Shown here piece after piece: positions 15,304-28,738 of a stretch of 28,738 nt of DNA; the first letter of the stretch is position 1; every line of letters begins with the position of its first letter. The notes under the pieces were generated by a model. It saw only the letters and a program-made list of their open reading frames with translations, had not been told where the DNA came from and searched no databases. Origin of the DNA: a virus. Position numbers and translations under genes: made by a program. The stretch covers positions 1-28,738 of the IMG/VR virus record IMGVR_UViG_3300033816_000375; one strand, given 5' to 3'.

Positions 15304-17337
15304 CTACTTGTTTATTTTAATTTCACAGTAGTCTGTGGTGCAATATGATTCACCTTGAGCCTCAAGATTATCTACACCGTCGTAAATTGCACTAAAGTCA
15401 ATGTGCTTCAACTTTCCAATATACGACTCATACTGCTCTTCAGTAATCTGAGTATATGGCTGCTGAGGATAAACAGTATTTCCCATTGGTAGGAATGAGA
15501 CTGCCTTTAGTTGTCCCTCGTACATATGCAGTGCTGGAACAACATGCTTTGACTCTGTTTCCTTGTCAAATGAAAGTGTTACAGAAACACCATTATCAGA
15601 CCAGTACTTCTGAGCAGTTGCAGCAAGAGCAATTTTTTCAAACAACGTAACATCCTTTTCAGATCGTGGATGACCTGACTTGATTGGGAAGTATACTACT
15701 GATGTATTTGCTGACACTACGTCGTCTTCAATTGTGTACCCTGCTGCTTTGAACAAATGCATCATTGGATCTGTGTTACCAAATCGAACTGCACGAAGGA
15801 AGAAGTTTCCTCCAGGTCCCCAGTGAACCCCAGGAGTTGCACCAGAAAGAATTGAAACTGATCCTGATGGCTTAACTGTTGTTACACGAATTGATTCACG
15901 AACACAAAGCCATTCTGAATACTGATGATCGTAATGACGAATCTTGTTGTATCCTTCATCCATCCACTCACGAACAATTGGCAAACCCCTTTGATCTGCA
16001 AATGATGCAATACCAGTAAGTGATGTACCAATACGACGGTTGCGTTGCATGATACCGTTTGTTTGTGGCCAGTGTGTTGGAACAAGTGTTACAGTCTTTC
16101 CATAAAGGTATGCAAACTTCAGGGTACGCAGGAAGTCCTCCTTAGATTCATGACGATTTAAGTGCACTTCTACAAGTGTACATAGTTCGTATGATTCCAA
16201 TGGCTGCTCCGCACATGGGTTAAATCCCATCACACGATAATCCTTACCGTCTGGCGCATCCTTTAGTCGTCCATAATTACGAGCAACATCAAGCCAGATA
16301 AAACCTGGTTCTCCGTTTTCTGTAATTAAATCTACATAGTCTTCATACTTTGTTCCTACTTCTGCTGAAATAGAATTATTAGACATCCAAGCCCAGCCTG
16401 GATTGTCTGGATCAAACGAGTTACGCTCTGGAAACATCTCTGAGTTCTTTAGATTCATAAATGTTTCATCTCCAGCATTACCCAAAGCAAGAGTTGCTGA
16501 TCGCCTTACGTTCCCTGATACTACACATGTACCAATTAGGTTTACAAGGTCTACGATGGCACGAGAATCTAGTGTTTCTCCGCCTCTGGAGCCGATTACA
16601 CGGTCTATCTGGTCGTGCAACTTGATAAGAGGTGCAGGCCCTGATGCAACGCCTCCAAAGCCCTTAATCGGTGCTCCAAGAGGTCTGATCAAATCATAGT
16701 TAAACTTCTGAATGCTCTGGTTTGCTCTTAGGTATGAGTTGATTAGAAGTCTGACTGACTCTACCCATCCTTCACGAGTGTCTGGAATTTCGAACACCTG
16801 TTCTGGTTCTGTTGGGGTATAGATTGAGAAATTCTTATCCTGTCCCACTGTATCAAACCCTACACCAATGCCAAGCATAAGGGCATCCATAACCCAAGCA
16901 AATAATGCTCCTGGATCATTCTTGTCAAGATCCTTTGTTGAAACCATTGCACAGTTTTGTAGTGCTGCTGAGTTCTTCTTCTCCATAGTCATAGGAGTTC
17001 CAAATGCCCACATACCTCGTCCTGGTGGAGTCCACTTTAATTCAAACATTCTTTGGAATGCTTCTTGTGCTGACTTCTGTGCCTTGTAGTCATTCCATGG
17101 CAAACGGTTTTCTTTAGCATGATTCTTTTGTACTGAATACATTCCCTCGATTACACGACGACAAACTTCATGCCATCTTTCCTTAGTTCCATCTTCCTTC
17201 ATGCGAGAATATGTACGAATAAAAGTAATTTCTCCAAGTGAGTTCTCTGCTGCATCTTTAAACCCAAATGGGCTTTCTTGGTTCTTGTATTTTTCTACGA
17301 ATTCCTCTGGAAGTTTAAAACTAAAAAAATCTGACAT
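15304..17337 (-). CDS. Adenosylcobalamin-dependent (class II) ribonucleoside-triphosphate reductase
   Basis: A 677-aa enzyme that converts ribonucleotides to deoxyribonucleotides using a B12-derived radical, supplying dNTPs for phage replication. The key residues of the monomeric Lactobacillus leichmannii-type reductase are present. Cys129 (LQNCAMVS) and Cys386 (YELCTLVEV) form the active-site pair. Cys375 and Glu377 lie in FNPCAEQPLE, the thiyl-radical finger loop. The C-terminal CTTDYC (Cys666/Cys671) is the dithiol that re-reduces the active site. Substrate-loop patterns such as SGNVRRSA are also seen. The length is slightly below the usual 740 or so. A class II enzyme needs no separate small subunit or activase, which fits its single-gene setting. 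AAAGGA lies 11 nt before the ATG. Confidence 0.95.
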   Translation of the reverse strand: MSDFFSFKLPEEFVEKYKNQESPFGFKDAAENSLGEITFIRTYSRMKEDGTKERWHEVCRRVIEGMYSVQKNHAKENRLPWNDYKAQKSAQEAFQRMFELKWTPPGRGMWAFGTPMTMEKKNSAALQNCAMVSTKDLDKNDPGALFAWVMDALMLGIGVGFDTVGQDKNFSIYTPTEPEQVFEIPDTREGWVESVRLLINSYLRANQSIQKFNYDLIRPLGAPIKGFGGVASGPAPLIKLHDQIDRVIGSRGGETLDSRAIVDLVNLIGTCVVSGNVRRSATLALGNAGDETFMNLKNSEMFPERNSFDPDNPGWAWMSNNSISAEVGTKYEDYVDLITENGEPGFIWLDVARNYGRLKDAPDGKDYRVMGFNPCAEQPLESYELCTLVEVHLNRHESKEDFLRTLKFAYLYGKTVTLVPTHWPQTNGIMQRNRRIGTSLTGIASFADQRGLPIVREWMDEGYNKIRHYDHQYSEWLCVRESIRVTTVKPSGSVSILSGATPGVHWGPGGNFFLRAVRFGNTDPMMHLFKAAGYTIEDDVVSANTSVVYFPIKSGHPRSEKDVTLFEKIALAATAQKYWSDNGVSVTLSFDKETESKHVVPALHMYEGQLKAVSFLPMGNTVYPQQPYTQITEEQYESYIGKLKHIDFSAIYDGVDNLEAQGESYCTTDYCEIKINK

Positions 17338-17383: not shown

Positions 17384-17432
17384 GAGTTTTATGAAAAGCA
17401 AAACTCTACCTAAATCTATTCTTGAGAGTTTT
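17383..17432 (-). repeat. Triple 8-bp inverted repeat upstream of the reductase promoter
   Basis: On the minus strand AAAACTCT (17432-17425), AGAGTTTT (17407-17400) and AAAACTCT (17390-17383) are separated by 17 and 9 nt. The middle arm can pair with either outer arm. The cluster spans the stop codon of the upstream gene and abuts the reductase -10 element, so it could be an operator or a switchable hairpin at the end of the upstream transcript. The arms are AT-rich, so chance is not excluded. Confidence 0.5.
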
Positions 17433-18153
17433 ACTTAAAGGTTTTCTTTTGCCAAAACTTTAGCCTATAGCCATTTTGAAAAGTAGACCTTACTTTACTT
17501 CTTTGTTCTTCTATTTTCTTTGCTGGAAAGTCTTTATCTAGTTCCATTGTCCATTCTTCTCTTTTAAATGGAAATACTTGAGACATTGGAGTTCCCTGTT
17601 TTAGTGTTCCCTTAAAATTCTTTTTTACCAAGAATGACAGATGCCCATCAGTAAAATAGTTGTCAGTGTCAACAACAGCATCGATTGCCTTTAGTGGTGA
17701 TGGGCTTTGGTGCATTGGAGTTGTAAAAAATGTACTATACCCAGGATTAGTTTGAACCATCCATGTGGGATGAATTCTTAAAACTTTATTACAATAAATA
17801 TCTTTATCTATAGGTAAATGAGAAATTTGTTCTGCTGAATGCTCACTTATAAGTAGTGAATGATACTTGTTCATCCCCGCAGGAAGTTGAATATTTAAAT
17901 TGCCGTCAGTTGTATCTATATATATATCACATGGAACTTTTAAAATATATCCCATTGCCATAGCGTCAAAAAATGCTTGACATTTCTTTACAGTAAGCCT
18001 CATGATACCTCTATCAGGAATGTCGCTTCCTGAAATTGCTGGTTGCTCTTTATACCAGTTAGGAATATTCCTTGTTCCCTGCTCTGGCTCTGGAACAATA
18101 CTTAGCAACTGAGGATACATCTGAAGAAATTTAATAGTATTCATAATTCCCAT
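17431..18153 (-). CDS. Conserved-looking phage protein of unknown function
   Basis: A 240-aa soluble protein. Visible elements are NIPNWYKEQP near the N-terminus, a block LTVKKCQAFFDAMAMGYILK followed by PCDIYID, a central IHPTWMVQTNPGYSTFFTTP, and a basic C-terminus (KVRSTFQNGYRLKFWQKK). The combination of a W-(Y/W)K motif and KKC-x-FFDAM-x-GY recalls proteins of unknown function found in many phages (possibly DUF6065-like, from memory and not checked). It lies between the fibre block and the reductase. The start at 18153 has a weak AGG site. A second ATG three codons later is possible. Confidence 0.68.
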   Translation of the reverse strand: MGIMNTIKFLQMYPQLLSIVPEPEQGTRNIPNWYKEQPAISGSDIPDRGIMRLTVKKCQAFFDAMAMGYILKVPCDIYIDTTDGNLNIQLPAGMNKYHSLLISEHSAEQISHLPIDKDIYCNKVLRIHPTWMVQTNPGYSTFFTTPMHQSPSPLKAIDAVVDTDNYFTDGHLSFLVKKNFKGTLKQGTPMSQVFPFKREEWTMELDKDFPAKKIEEQRSKVRSTFQNGYRLKFWQKKTFK

Positions 18154-18166
18154 TCTATTACCTATA

Positions 18167-18175
18167 ATTATATCA
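18167..18175 (-). promoter_or_regulatory. Extended -10 promoter for the unknown 240-aa protein
   Basis: TGATATAAT on the minus strand, 13 nt before the ATG at 18153, leaving a leader of about 6-7 nt that contains AGG. Confidence 0.55.
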
Positions 18176-18208
18176 TAACAAATGACTTAGCATTATGTTA
18201 AAATATTA

Positions 18209-19819
18209 TTATGCTTCAGGAGTTGGTTCAGGCAATGGGTAATCTATCTGATAACCGTCATAGACTAGGAAGTTTTCTGTGAAGAAAATATCTAGTGGCT
18301 CACAGTTAATAGAAACAACTTGATGCTCAACATTTGTTATAACCAAGTCAACTATATCAACCCAAGTGTTTGTTTGTGTGGACCACAACTTGTCTGTAGT
18401 CAAAAGGTTTGCAGACAAAATCATTTGTGCAACACCGTCTCTCTTTGTAAGTAAATGGTGAGTTCCTGAGTATGTTTCATTGTTAATCATTACAACAACT
18501 GGAGCATTTGATAGTCCAACCATTTTAACTGTTGTTGTTTTATTTGGAACAATTGATAGATTTTCTGGATTGTTAGTCCAAGCAATCATTTCTTCTTTTG
18601 TAAATGACATTCCTAGTCCAGGAACGTCTGTTGAAACAAGAGTGTCTCCTACCTGAAGATCTTGTGCTTGTACATATCCAGTTGTAGTTAGGATCAAAGT
18701 TGTTGGACCAACAGATGTAAAACGTGGTCCTCCGCCGTAAGCACCAAAGGCACCGAAGGCACCGAAGGCACCAAAGGCTCCGAATGCAGAAAACGCACCG
18801 AAAGCACCAAAGGCTCCGAATGCAGAAAACGCACCGAAAGCACCGAAAGCACCAAAGGCTCCGAATGCAGAAAACGCACCGAAAGCACCGAAAGCACCGA
18901 AAGCACCGAATGCAGCGAATGCACCGAAAGCACCGAAGGCAGCGAATGCAGTTGTAACAGTTCCTGATGCACCTGATGTTGCAGAATTACCACAAGCATT
19001 TGTTGCATAAACAGTGTATGACTGTGCTGTTCCTTGTTCTTGACCTACAGATACCGAAGTTGATCCAGTAGTTCCAGACTTTCCATCAGATGATGCCCAA
19101 GTGTAAGATGTAATTGCTGATCCACCATTTGATGGGGCTGACCATGAAACAGAGTCTGTTCCTGCTGATGGAGAAGATGCAGAAGGTGCACCTGGTGTTG
19201 CTGGAACTGTTGTTGCAGTAACCGCACCTGATGCTGATGTTAAATCAGAGTCACCATTTGCATTTGTAACACGACCCTGGAATGTATAGGATGTTCCTCC
19301 TGATAATCCAGTAACGCTTACTGCAGAAGTTGCACTTGATGCAGACTGTGCTGCATTTGAAATTGCATAGTGTGATGAAATTGCTTTTCCACCTGTTGCT
19401 CGTGGTTCAACTGTAACGATAACAAGACCGTTACCAAAGCCACGACCAGAACATGTGTTTGTTACTGCTGAAATGGAAGGAGATTGTGGAACAGTCGTAA
19501 CTGTTACAGAGTTAGATGCAGCAGATGCTGCTCCAGTTCCTGCAGCATTAGTTCCTGTTACTGTAAAAGTTGCTGTTGCACCTGAAGCAATTCCAGTTAC
19601 AACAATTGGAGATGATGCCCCAGTTGCTGTTTGTCCTGTGCTTGCTGTTACAGTAAAAGATGTCGCAGCATTAGGCCCTGTAGGAGTAAATGTTACTGAT
19701 ACAGCGCCATTGTCATAAGGACGGTTTGTTCCAACATCTGTTGCTGTACCTATTGTTGGTGCGTATGGAGTTAGGAAGTCGTTTGCCGACTGACTCATTC
19801 TACCTGCTTGCTTTGACAT
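18209..19819 (-). CDS. Fn3-FGAF repeat-Hint domain structural protein
   Basis: A 536-aa protein of unusual build. Residues about 20-290 hold three fibronectin type III-like domains, each ending in a VTV/VTA-TTVP-type linker (for example SVTVTTVP and VTATTVPATPG). Residues 292-364 are an almost pure repeat of Phe-Gly-Ala triplets with Ser or Ala variants. Residues about 371-525 look like a Hint (hedgehog/intein) fold: TTLILTTTGYVQAQDLQVGD, then SGTHHLLTKRDG, then ENFLVYDGYQ. Position 1 of Hint would be Ser372 rather than Cys, and the C-terminal His-Asn of inteins is absent. It follows the fibre genes, so it is probably a virion or tail-tip protein. AAGGGAG precedes the ATG. Confidence 0.8.
   Translation of the reverse strand: MSKQAGRMSQSANDFLTPYAPTIGTATDVGTNRPYDNGAVSVTFTPTGPNAATSFTVTASTGQTATGASSPIVVTGIASGATATFTVTGTNAAGTGAASAASNSVTVTTVPQSPSISAVTNTCSGRGFGNGLVIVTVEPRATGGKAISSHYAISNAAQSASSATSAVSVTGLSGGTSYTFQGRVTNANGDSDLTSASGAVTATTVPATPGAPSASSPSAGTDSVSWSAPSNGGSAITSYTWASSDGKSGTTGSTSVSVGQEQGTAQSYTVYATNACGNSATSGASGTVTTAFAAFGAFGAFAAFGAFGAFGAFGAFSAFGAFGAFGAFGAFSAFGAFGAFGAFSAFGAFGAFGAFGAFGAYGGGPRFTSVGPTTLILTTTGYVQAQDLQVGDTLVSTDVPGLGMSFTKEEMIAWTNNPENLSIVPNKTTTVKMVGLSNAPVVVMINNETYSGTHHLLTKRDGVAQMILSANLLTTDKLWSTQTNTWVDIVDLVITNVEHQVVSINCEPLDIFFTENFLVYDGYQIDYPLPEPTPEA
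18728..18948 (-). repeat. Tandem repeat encoding FGA/FSA triplets
   Basis: A 9-bp unit (TTCGGTGCA-like on the minus strand) repeated about 24 times, with interspersed units giving FSA and FAA. A longer period that includes the FSA unit occurs three times. The repeat stays in frame throughout. Confidence 0.9.
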
Positions 19820-25838: not shown

Positions 25839-25854
25839 ACACCTGCCAAGGTGT
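25839..25854 (+). other. Small hairpin in the leader of the lysozyme mRNA
   Basis: ACACCT and AGGTGT pair around GCCA, close to the predicted 5' end of the transcript. It could protect the message or affect ribosome access. Confidence 0.45.
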
Positions 25855-25877
25855 TATTGTTTTCTAAGGAGGAAACT

Positions 25878-26441
25878 ATGATTAAATTTATCGAAAGAAA
25901 CAAAGAGATCATTAGCACACTCAGTATCGTAGCACTTGTCAGTGTATTTTCTAATGCTGCTAATGCTGCCCCAGAACTAAGCACGAAGAATAACCTTAGC
26001 CTTGAACAGGCTCAGACATCGGACACAACCTCGAAAGAGGTTTTTTTGGTTTCTAAGGAAAAAATGTTGGAGAGTTTTGCAAATAAGACATCTCTTACAG
26101 ACTTAGAACTAAAGAAGATGCTTGCACTTGTTGGCTTCAAGGGTCAAAACCTTGTTGAGGCTTGGGCTGTAGCAAAGAAAGAATCTAATGGTCGCCCATT
26201 GGCTTTTAACGGAAATGAAAGCACTGGGGACTCCTCATATGGAATCTTTCAGATTAATATGATTGACTCACTTGGTCCTGATCGTAGAGACAAGTTTGAG
26301 TTATCTGCAAATGCTGAACTTTTTAACCCAGTTTTAAATGCACAAATTGCACACCACATGAGTAATGGTGGAGAAAACTGGATTGCCTGGAAGGGCATTA
26401 CTCCAAGAACAAAGTACTGGATGGCTAAATTTCCTAAGTAA
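25878..26441 (+). CDS. Secreted lysozyme/transglycosylase-like enzyme (probable endolysin)
   Basis: A 187-aa protein and the only plus-strand gene. It starts with a basic patch and hydrophobic core (MIKFIERNKE, IISTLSIVALVSVFS) and a likely signal peptidase site after Ala30 (ANA-APE). Residues about 90-175 resemble a lysozyme-like/SLT domain: Glu102 in VAKKESNGRPL is the candidate catalytic acid, followed by GDSSYGIFQINM and GGENWIAWKG. It should cleave peptidoglycan, either for lysis via host secretion or in wall remodelling. The start at 25878 is set by AAGGAGG 5 nt upstream. The frame is open to 25851, but that would include the leader. It has its own promoter and terminator. Confidence 0.85.
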   Translation: MIKFIERNKEIISTLSIVALVSVFSNAANAAPELSTKNNLSLEQAQTSDTTSKEVFLVSKEKMLESFANKTSLTDLELKKMLALVGFKGQNLVEAWAVAKKESNGRPLAFNGNESTGDSSYGIFQINMIDSLGPDRRDKFELSANAELFNPVLNAQIAHHMSNGGENWIAWKGITPRTKYWMAKFPK

Positions 26442-26453
26442 AATATAATAACT

Positions 26454-26488
26454 AAAGGCACCTATGGAAAACTCTATAGGTGCTTTTT
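26454..26488. terminator. Convergent bidirectional terminator
   Basis: GCACCTAT (26458-26465) and ATAGGTGC (26476-26483) form an 8-bp stem, extended by AAAG/TTTT pairing. On the plus strand a TTTTT run follows, ending the lysozyme mRNA. On the minus strand the hairpin is followed by CTTTAGTTATTATATTTT and would end the oxygenase operon, whose stop codon overlaps it. Confidence 0.82.
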
Positions 26489-27062
26489 AGTTTCTTAAAA
26501 TAAGGTTAATTGCTGCTCTTGGGGCCTTAATAGTCTCAACCTCATGAGCAAGATTTTTAGGAACAAAAATAAAGTCACCTTCTACTACATGGTGCTCATT
26601 TTCTAAATTCTCTCCTGTGCGCCAAATCATTTCACCCTTTACTACCCACTGAAACTGATCAACATAGTCTCTATGCTTGCTTCCGACTATTCCCCTGTTT
26701 TTCATTAAAGATACTAAACAAAAGTTTCCAGTATATATTTCTGATGAGTATTGAGAAAGCCCCCACTCAGTTACTGGAGCAAGTTCTGGAATTATTGTCA
26801 TATAAAGATCTTTTGGATCATATAGTTGAAATGCCATTCTTGACCAAAATCTACATTTTAATCTCATATCAGAAGACTCACCCTCAACAAAATCGTTTAA
26901 CCGATATGATCTATCTGGAAAGGCAGTTAAGTCTTCATCAACATACTTAGAGACCATGGACATAATTGTGTCCAACGATGGCAAATCCGTAAACACATCT
27001 TTAAATATGTGAATTCTATTCTCAGCAATTGCTTGCTCGACAAGAGTCATATCTATTTTCAT
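26487..27062 (-). CDS. Cupin/JmjC-like protein, candidate Fe(II) oxygenase
   Basis: A 191-aa protein with a C-terminal double-stranded beta-helix pattern. His130-x-Asp132 lies in SKHRDYVDQFQ, then VVKGEMIWR and VEGDFIFVPKNLAHEVE with His173. HxD plus a distal His in this arrangement is the iron-binding triad of JmjC/cupin-type 2OG oxygenases. Residues 1-100 are not recognised. The start at 27062 is chosen because its ATG overlaps the previous stop by four bases (ATGA). A TTG at 27071 is less likely. It is the third gene of a coupled operon with another oxygenase, so both may act on the same target, which is unknown. Confidence 0.75.
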   Translation of the reverse strand: MKIDMTLVEQAIAENRIHIFKDVFTDLPSLDTIMSMVSKYVDEDLTAFPDRSYRLNDFVEGESSDMRLKCRFWSRMAFQLYDPKDLYMTIIPELAPVTEWGLSQYSSEIYTGNFCLVSLMKNRGIVGSKHRDYVDQFQWVVKGEMIWRTGENLENEHHVVEGDFIFVPKNLAHEVETIKAPRAAINLILRN

Positions 27063-27658
27063 TTTAACCAACTAACTACAGCATATCGTTCTCCAGATTT
27101 TACTGGCAGGACTGAGTGGTTATAAACATATGTTGATGGGAAAACAAGAAAGTCATTTGCTGCAGGTTTGTATGTTATTCCAAATCTTGGAAACACAATC
27201 TCACCACCTTCATAGTTATCATTAATATAATATATTGTTGACATTCTTCTGTGGTAGTCTTTATGATCATCAACATGGTTTACAAACTTTTGCCCAACTC
27301 CATATTTTAATATGCTGTATTGGTCGTGCCATGTTGTAGAAAGTCCATACATTGATTTATAGTCATTCTCTAGAGGACCAAGATTTTCAAGGAATAGATT
27401 TGAAAGAGATGAAAAGAATGCACCCTTAAAACCAATAAACTCTTTAATTTCTTCTTCACTATAGGGAACTGGAACTACAAATGTATCTCTAAGTTCTTTG
27501 TTCTTTCCAGCCTCTTCATCTCCCGTTTTTACTCCTGCCAACTGCCATTCTATTTTTGCACTAGAAATTCCTTCTTCTATATCAAAAACTAAGGAGCCAT
27601 CATAATTCATAGCGTTAGAATAAACAACAACTCCTGGAACTAATTCTTTTTTATTCAT
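27059..27658 (-). CDS. 2OG-Fe(II) oxygenase, prolyl 4-hydroxylase-like
   Basis: A 199-aa protein. The C-terminal half carries the whole prolyl 4-hydroxylase-type catalytic set: His128-x-Asp130 in KFVNHVDDHKD, the strand MSTIYYINDNYEGGEIVFP, His181 in YVYNHSVLPV and Arg191 in SGERYAVVSW, which would bind the 2-oxoglutarate carboxylate. It would hydroxylate a protein or small molecule in the cytoplasm. The start at 27658 shares one base with the previous stop (TAATG) and has AGGG 8 nt upstream. An in-frame extension to 27724 overlaps the upstream gene and is unlikely. Phages often carry such enzymes with unknown substrates. Confidence 0.88.
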   Translation of the reverse strand: MNKKELVPGVVVYSNAMNYDGSLVFDIEEGISSAKIEWQLAGVKTGDEEAGKNKELRDTFVVPVPYSEEEIKEFIGFKGAFFSSLSNLFLENLGPLENDYKSMYGLSTTWHDQYSILKYGVGQKFVNHVDDHKDYHRRMSTIYYINDNYEGGEIVFPRFGITYKPAANDFLVFPSTYVYNHSVLPVKSGERYAVVSWLK

Positions 27659-27903
27659 TACCATTTCCCTATCGGACAGGTTGCTACTTGCATTTTTGTT
27701 TTTGCATACATAAAGCAGCCACATTTTTTACACTGTTTTGTTAATTTAATTAATTCTGGGCATGCTTTACATATAGAATATCTTTCAGATGAAACCTCTT
27801 CAGTTGCCCATTCAGTATTTGGGTTAATAAGATCCATTGGCCCAACAGAAGATTCTTTATTTGTTTCTATTATTTCTTTTATTTTACCTATTCTACCTGA
27901 CAT
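27658..27903 (-). CDS. Cys-rich zinc-ribbon-like small protein
   Basis: An 81-aa protein, helical at the N-terminus, then six cysteines: Cys45 and Cys48 (CKAC), Cys58, Cys61 and Cys63 (CKKCGC), and Cys76 (TCPIGKW). This spacing suggests a zinc or iron site of the zinc-ribbon or rubredoxin type. Similar short proteins ending in CPIGKW are, as I recall, common in marine phages beside oxygenase genes, but the function is unknown. It leads a three-gene coupled operon. It lacks a ribosome-binding site and has TAAAAT 6 nt before the ATG. Confidence 0.75.
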   Translation of the reverse strand: MSGRIGKIKEIIETNKESSVGPMDLINPNTEWATEEVSSERYSICKACPELIKLTKQCKKCGCFMYAKTKMQVATCPIGKW

Positions 27904-27909
27904 ACTATA

Positions 27910-27918
27910 ATTTTACCA
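27910..27918 (-). promoter_or_regulatory. Extended -10 promoter, leaderless, for the oxygenase operon
   Basis: TGGTAAAAT on the minus strand. The six bases TATAGT separate it from the ATG at 27903. No Shine-Dalgarno sequence is visible. Confidence 0.57.
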
Positions 27919-27957
27919 TACCATTCTTTTTTTTAGAAAAATATATAGTAATTTAAA

Positions 27958-28738
27958 TTAAATTGGTTGTGCATCGCCAGGACCGCCACCGCCACCGCCA
28001 CCTGAAGGTGTAACAGCAGGTGTAACTGCAGGGGTAACAGCAGGGGTAACAGCAGGAGTTACTGCAGGGGTAACAGCAGGTGTAACTGCAGGGGTAACAG
28101 CAGGTGTGACGCTTTCTTCTGGTGAATAACAGTTAGGCCAAGTTCCTAGTTCTCCAAACTCAGCACATGTTGGAGTTGAAGGTGTTACTGAAGGTGTTAC
28201 TGAAGGGGTAACAGCAGGAGTTACTGCAGGGGTAACAGCAGGTGTAACTGCAGGTGTAACTGCTGGTGTAACTGCAGGGGTAACAGCAGGGGTAACAGCA
28301 GGTGTAACGGATGGAGTTACCGAAGGTGTAACTGCAGGTGTGACAGAAGGTTCAACACACTCACCAAATGATGCATTCCAAACTAATCCACACTGACCAC
28401 ACTGAGATGAGGATAAAGTGCTTGTGTCAGCACAAGGATCTGCTGGTGTAACAGCAGGGGTAACAGCAGGGGTAACAGCAGGGGTAACAGCAGGGGTAAC
28501 AGCAGGGGTAACTGCAGGTGTTACTGCAGGAGTAACTGCAGGTGTGACAGCAGGCGTTACAGGCGTAACCTCTGGCTCAACACATTCACCAAATGATGCA
28601 TTCCAAACTAATCCACACTGACCGCACTGGCTTTGTGTTAGGAGAGAAGTATCTTCACAAGGATCTGCTGGTGTTACTGCTGGAGTAACCTCTGGCTCAA
28701 TACATTCACCAAATGTTGGTGACCAAACCAAACCACAC
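27958..28738 (-). CDS. Cys-module/Pro-Thr-rich repeat protein (N-terminus beyond the right edge)
   Basis: 260 codons are visible and the frame is open to the window edge, so the true start lies outside. A TTG at 28731 is not a start, because it falls inside a repeated CGLVW motif. The protein alternates between a 30-residue module (DPC, then SQCGQCGLVWNASFGECVEP) and long runs of the four-residue unit PAVT. Three similar modules and one diverged module (CAEFGELGTWPNCYSP) are seen. It ends in a glycine run and DAQPI. It looks like an extended, possibly surface-exposed stalk with disulphide or metal-binding knots, in a virion or secreted protein. The function is unknown. Confidence 0.8.
   Translation of the reverse strand, partial: CGLVWSPTFGECIEPEVTPAVTPADPCEDTSLLTQSQCGQCGLVWNASFGECVEPEVTPVTPAVTPAVTPAVTPAVTPAVTPAVTPAVTPAVTPAVTPADPCADTSTLSSSQCGQCGLVWNASFGECVEPSVTPAVTPSVTPSVTPAVTPAVTPAVTPAVTPAVTPAVTPAVTPAVTPSVTPSVTPSTPTCAEFGELGTWPNCYSPEESVTPAVTPAVTPAVTPAVTPAVTPAVTPAVTPAVTPSGGGGGGGPGDAQPI
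28006..28575 (-). repeat. 12-bp tandem repeats encoding PAVT
   Basis: Three tracts (about 28006-28110, 28180-28345 and 28440-28575) of a 12-bp unit of the GGTAACAGCAGG type on the plus strand, with silent variants and occasional PSVT units. The tracts separate the Cys modules. Such repeats are prone to length change and assembly collapse. Confidence 0.88.

Follow-up and report, generated by a model that had tools for sequence, protein, structure and literature searches.

What do two predicted oxygenases do beside a phage protein with long Val-Thr-Pro (VTP) repeats? The question is raised by IMG/VR virus record IMGVR_UViG_3300033816_000375, a linear record of 28,738 bases analysed here in full (the window), with head and tail genes on the minus strand. 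The genes of interest run in that direction: first one whose product alternates VTP repeats with Cys modules, next one for an 81-aa Cys-rich protein, and then those for a predicted 2-oxoglutarate (2OG)-Fe(II) oxygenase and a JmjC/cupin-like protein, with a hairpin after the last. We propose, with a probability of roughly 0.64, that this locus is a fibre-modification cassette, in which the stalk repeats of the fibre would be the substrate of the matched enzymes encoded next to them. The proposal is built on gene order, conserved active-site motifs, predicted folds, co-occurrence and covariation. Across related phages, the enzyme that tracks the VTP repeats is the JmjC/cupin-like one, not the 2OG oxygenase. 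The locus comprises the following features:

27958..28737, minus strand: Pro/Thr-repeat putative fibre protein, C-terminal part, with (A/S)VTP arrays alternating with Cys modules; its 5′ end is lost at the contig end

27658..27903, minus strand: 81-aa Cys-rich protein (Cys81) with six Cys; phrog_13558, weak DUF6171

27059..27658, minus strand: 2OG-Fe(II) oxygenase, prolyl-hydroxylase-like (PF13640), 199 aa, starting at a TAATG overlap

26487..27062, minus strand: JmjC/cupin-like putative oxygenase ("type I cupin"), starting at an ATGA overlap; fused to GT61 in some relatives

26454..26487, no strand: terminator-like hairpin lying where the cassette and the lysozyme gene converge

25851..26441, plus strand: SLT_3 lysozyme-like gene, facing the cassette and forming its boundary in relatives

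The initial annotation had described a coupled operon of a PAVT-repeat protein, a Cys-rich protein and two oxygenases. Its coordinates and motifs hold except for the start positions, and the coupling is borne out by start/stop overlaps between Cys81 and the 2OG gene (TAATG, 27660-27656) and between the 2OG and cupin-like genes (ATGA, 27062-27059). The 2OG protein likely starts at ATG 27658, rather than at the listed open-reading frame start at 27724, and the cupin-like gene most likely at ATG 27062. The terminator role of the hairpin is argued chiefly from its position, the number of hairpins found being no higher than the shuffle mean.

Association of the repeat protein with the oxygenase was assessed on a sample of records collected solely by a PAVT DNA pattern, and not by enzyme. 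PF13640 was present in 35 of the 37 records in this sample with a fibre-type, Cys-containing PAVT protein, and in none of the 13 records whose PAVT repeats lie in an unrelated Cys-less protein, so that the co-occurrence across phages put forward as a check in the initial annotation is found. The position is equally regular: of 34 records that extend far enough past the repeat gene, 31 have the 2OG core domain 0.6-1.1 kb beyond it, which argues against chance. The 0/13 count also leads us to reject the idea that PAVT repeats in general draw oxygenases. Cys-less PAVT-repeat proteins, of up to about 1,800 aa, were seen in L042, L047, L060, L083, L086 and other loci of a different phage lineage, where PF13640 is absent.

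The lineage of the window comprises more than 594 contigs, 80 of which were retained. In related phages the slot between the fibre and lysozyme genes is a hypervariable cassette. The N-terminus and Cys modules are retained in the fibre, and its spacer varies among VTP, TPTP, PVAP and Thr-rich repeats. Slot genes were annotated in relatives by profile models built from few seeds, with representatives checked against Pfam and PHROGs. Besides the 2OG and cupin families, slot enzymes include x193 (a third family, a predicted 2OG oxygenase whose fold search finds the chlorella virus enzyme vCPH, PDB 5C5T), GT61, GT60 and other glycosyltransferases, an NAD-dependent epimerase and radical SAM/SPASM proteins. 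At least one of 2OG, x193 and cupin occupies the slot of 83 of 84 Pro-rich fibres and of 5 of 10 Thr-rich ones. Cys81 is present in nearly all cassettes, regardless of repeat type.

Repeat type and enzyme content covary. In counts that leave out loci found through either enzyme, any cupin accompanies 26 of 29 VTP-rich fibres and 2 of 49 others (p = 3.5e-15), and the window's own subfamily (type I) accompanies 24 of the 29 fibres with at least eight VTP motifs and none of the 49 others (p = 1.5e-15); the p-values here and below are descriptive, because both the motif thresholds (VTP ≥ 8) and the division into cupin subfamilies were set once the table had been viewed. The five VTP ≥ 8 fibres without a type I cupin carry VTP in other repeat contexts. 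Conversely, searching via the cupin gave eight unique complete cassettes, every one with VTP ≥ 8.

Plain phage relatedness was considered as a cause of the co-occurrence and rejected for the downstream backbone, where the sequences of the lysozyme, cement and w24138 genes predict repeat class at chance level. L008 and L291, for instance, differ in repeats and cassettes although their lysozyme proteins are identical. On a tree of the three flanking genes the repeat class switches at least 13 times. Across 10 independent supported pairs on this tree, the cupin moves with VTP in 9.2 and opposite to it in 0 (p = 0.004). In the corresponding test of x193 and PVA, the two move together in 9.9 pairs and opposite in 1.0 (p = 0.012).

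Both window enzymes have a conserved HxD...H motif. The 2OG protein matches PF13640 (1.1e-16) and phrog_61 (4.6e-27) and has the iron triad HxD...H and the 2OG-binding basic residue of the double-stranded beta-helix core; H129, D131 and H182 do not vary among 27 relatives, at least 90% of which also have R192. A profile search of solved structures places it closest to prolyl hydroxylases (3itq, 5hv0, PHD2, 5c5t). Its neighbours include the Bacillus anthracis prolyl 4-hydroxylase (P4H), PHD2, vCPH and prolyl 3-hydroxylase, with PKHD-type hydroxylases matched too. It is a predicted prolyl hydroxylase-like oxygenase, in keeping with the P4H-like enzyme with a complete HxD-H-R motif that had been recognized at the outset. 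Some single records (G002, G007, G008, G015, G022, G025, G029) contain clusters of 6-10 PF13640 genes, most of them away from the fibre locus.

The JmjC/cupin-like protein reaches only sub-threshold Pfam scores (PF08007, 13 bits against a cut-off of 22; PF07883, 25.5 against 27.2). Its HxD motif (H128, D130) and H171 are invariant across 25 relatives, and Foldseek relates its predicted fold to YcfD, NO66, YxbC, FIH and PHD2 (E about 1e-5 to 1e-6). The initial description as a JmjC/cupin-like protein with HxD-H is therefore upheld: we regard it as a predicted JmjC-type oxygenase by fold, falling outside any JmjC family by model cut-off. Relatives of this cupin were sought among 84,980 bacterial species genomes, for host identification, and among 50,697 phage records, and none was confirmed in the former or found in the latter.

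The incomplete repeat protein of the window (259 aa; 18% Pro, 17% Thr) contains 29 VTPA units. Because these are written in 13 different DNA 12-mers, the amino-acid motif appears to be maintained beyond mere DNA duplication. Full-length relatives measure 879-1013 aa and have a common tail-fibre-like N-terminus that also occurs in tail-fibre genes of the window, for which reason the repeat protein is likely a virion fibre. The N-terminal part of these relatives matches the Mtd_N-type tail protein of the window, and the genome position is consistent with a fibre; a Pfam search with the full-length relative L004 gave no match. Some relatives contain a PASTA domain and some a Hint-like C-terminus. 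The fibres of L003 (2-1117) and L189 (2399-5392) terminate in a Hint/intein-like domain that opens with Cys and has His-Asn close to its end; these residues suggest self-cleavage of the fibre C-terminus.

Glycosyltransferases form a further variable layer of the cassette. Their matches in the slot comprise GT61 (3e-15), GT60 (1e-38 and 2e-42) and phage glycosyltransferase families, and GT61 is sometimes fused to the cupin. A GT60-type gene (PF11397) stands behind the 2OG gene in L021-L023, and the 2OG/GT60 pairing recurs in other relatives. Across 96 unique complete cassettes, GT61 and GTx were confined to VTP and F5 to PVA-containing fibres, and each of the 10 Thr-rich fibres had GT60. In L140, L158, L189, L283 and L301, radical SAM/SPASM and GT60 genes accompany Thr-rich, mucin-like repeats (TTTTAAPTTTT), often without a 2OG gene. 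The window slot itself encodes two predicted oxygenases and no recognised glycosyltransferase; one is recognised in 9 of 20 PAVT-pattern loci, and about half of these loci have oxygenases without one.

We envisage the following mechanism. A tail-fibre-like protein would present extended Val-Thr-Pro stalks between disulphide-type Cys modules, and the two iron/2OG-type enzymes encoded just downstream would hydroxylate stalk residues, prolines being the most likely target of the PF13640 enzyme and some residue within the VTP motif that of the JmjC/cupin-like one. Cassette glycosyltransferases (GT61 or GT60, among others) would then probably add sugars to Thr or to hydroxylated Pro in many of the relatives. 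Repeat and enzyme set would be exchanged together as matched pairs, giving varied stalk chemistries on the same phage backbone. From the evidence above we infer the substrate role of the repeats, the residue modified, the virion location of the protein and any glycan. That the lineage, a large one of freshwater actinophages, holds swappable matched pairs, each oxygenase family recognising a short Pro-containing motif of its own (type I cupin with VTP, x193 with PVAP, glycosyltransferases following), and hence exchangeable hydroxylated and glycosylated stalks strikes us as an even proposition.

Two suggestions of the initial annotation are thereby modified. The repeats as substrate gain from the co-occurrence and from the covariation of repeat and cassette, but the VTP-specific partner is the cupin-like enzyme rather than the 2OG oxygenase. 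Later glycosylation gains from the GT61-cupin fusion and from GT60 in the slot of relatives; for the phage of the window it is drawn solely from those relatives, because its own slot has no glycosyltransferase.

Several observations weigh against the proposed cassette. On the flank tree the 2OG gene moves with VTP in 4.1 pairs and opposite in 1.3, which is not significant, and 2OG as a VTP-specific enzyme is accordingly unsupported; the gene is common to several Pro-rich repeat types. L073, L121 and L110/L122 keep VTP repeats and cupin with no 2OG in the slot, and half of the Thr-rich fibres have a 2OG as well. The AlphaFold model of the cupin-like protein is of moderate confidence (predicted local distance difference test score 83). 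In chlorella virus PBCV-1, which has an active P4H, hydroxyproline was looked for in virions and not detected (PMC7019647). The remaining points concern linkage: the sequences of Cys81 and 2OG partly predict repeat class (0.76-0.79), a tree of the intervening 2OG gene offers 4-5 independent pairs, too few to decide, and a single recombination event could move the fibre 3′ end and the cassette, because the two are adjacent, so that joint transfer may account for part of the pattern.

These last points, and the contiguity of fibre and cassette, also favour the explanation that repeat region and cassette ride together as a linked block, the enzymes having some other target, such as the Cys modules, a different virion protein or the surface of the host. 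We consider this unlikely. The presence of the proximal 2OG is a far poorer correlate of VTP than the distal cupin is, and fibres that combine VTP with TPTP/PVAP arrays (L277, L325) carry both x193 and a distant cupin. As targets the Cys modules would be non-discriminating, because nearly all VTP, PTP and TTT fibres have at least eight Cys.

Less probable still is that the oxygenases act on a virion glycan borne by the repeats on Thr, modifying its sugars or sugar nucleotides and not amino acids. The epimerase, the glycosyltransferases and the GT61-cupin fusion in the same slot would fit, as would the association of GT60 with Thr-rich fibres, since members of that family put GlcNAc (N-acetylglucosamine) on mucin-type domains (PMC8724618). 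However, no slot glycosyltransferase is recognised beside the oxygenases of the window or of about half of the PAVT-pattern loci, and the closest solved relatives are mostly protein prolyl hydroxylases for the 2OG enzyme and protein-hydroxylating JmjC enzymes for the cupin.

We give little credence to auxiliary metabolic enzymes that lower 2-oxoglutarate to change host metabolism, with fibre adjacency incidental; this role has been proposed for cyanophage 2OG oxygenases (PMC3037559) and would suit the records with multiple PF13640 genes, but not the fixed place directly behind the repeat gene (31/34) or the matching of enzyme family to repeat type. That the repeats are slippage-generated spacers with no modification role is highly improbable: tandem arrays do vary in number and some 12-mers recur, but VTPA is kept despite synonymous codon variation and repeat type predicts enzyme content.

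Elsewhere in the window (17431-19819, minus strand) a second repeat protein has an fn3-like part, GAFGAF repeats and a Hint-like C-terminus without the usual Cys and His-Asn ends, and a DUF6065-like gene comes after it. The Hint protein of L027/L029 precedes a similar gene of this kind, along with several 2OG genes, for which reason DUF6065 may be another fibre-modifying enzyme. Between the fibre and portal genes (15304-17337, minus strand) lies a gene for an enzyme resembling ribonucleotide reductase by eye. WhiB, an actinophage marker (PMC10202952), is present in all nine scanned records of at least 90 kb, and the nearest isolates by capsid protein are Streptomyces phages (about 40%); on these sequence grounds the host is likely a freshwater actinobacterium.

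Phage 2OG oxygenases are widespread, and to our knowledge none has an established substrate; nor do we know of a bacteriophage system in which hydroxylation is aimed at a virion fibre. Here repeat type predicts the adjoining oxygenase, and therefore supplies a concrete candidate substrate that short synthetic peptides would allow one to test. Should the proposed cassette prove real, it would be the first case known to us of phage fibre hydroxylation, joined in relatives by glycosylation, and its naturally occurring pairs of enzyme and motif could serve in modifying peptides.

Among known systems, the serine-rich-repeat adhesins of bacteria likewise set a repeat surface protein beside a strain-variable, dedicated glycosyltransferase cluster; they differ in being cellular and Ser-rich, in using accessory secretion and in having no hydroxylases. 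Mycobacteriophages are actinophages with glycosylated capsid and tail proteins and phage-encoded glycosyltransferases (Freeman et al. 2023, cited in PMC12619734); their glycans sit at the C-termini of capsid and tail tube, and the accessible part of that source describes no hydroxylase or repeat-matched cassette. In the Skp1 pathway of Dictyostelium and Toxoplasma, the soluble P4H PhyA is followed by Gnt1 (CAZy GT60), a GlcNAc-transferase of the family represented by PF11397, as found behind the 2OG gene in L021-L023; unlike the long phage-fibre repeats, its target is a single proline in a cytosolic subunit of a ubiquitin ligase (PMC3515798), and the window has no GT60. Two of the enzyme families, 2OG by profile and x193 by fold, lead to the vCPH of PBCV-1, which belongs to a eukaryotic algal virus for which a review reports no fixed repeat-protein partner (PMC7019647). 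Cyanophage 2OG-Fe(II) oxygenases (phrog_61) are of the same enzyme superfamily, with no repeat matching known. In cyanophage ACG-2014f (L346, NC_047713.1 10981-27310) a collagen-repeat protein, a glycosyltransferase, a 2OG oxygenase and a tail fibre lie side by side, possibly an independent case of repeat protein plus oxygenase. Other cyanophage copies adjoin DNA genes rather than fibres, so that cyanophages provide a mixed picture with one clear case, and not a second clean example. The literature searched, with subscription papers outside its scope, contains no description of phage fibre repeats paired in this way with hydroxylases and glycosyltransferases encoded next to them; the components are separately known, as viral P4H, as P4H with GT60 acting on hydroxyproline, and as glycosylated actinophage virions.
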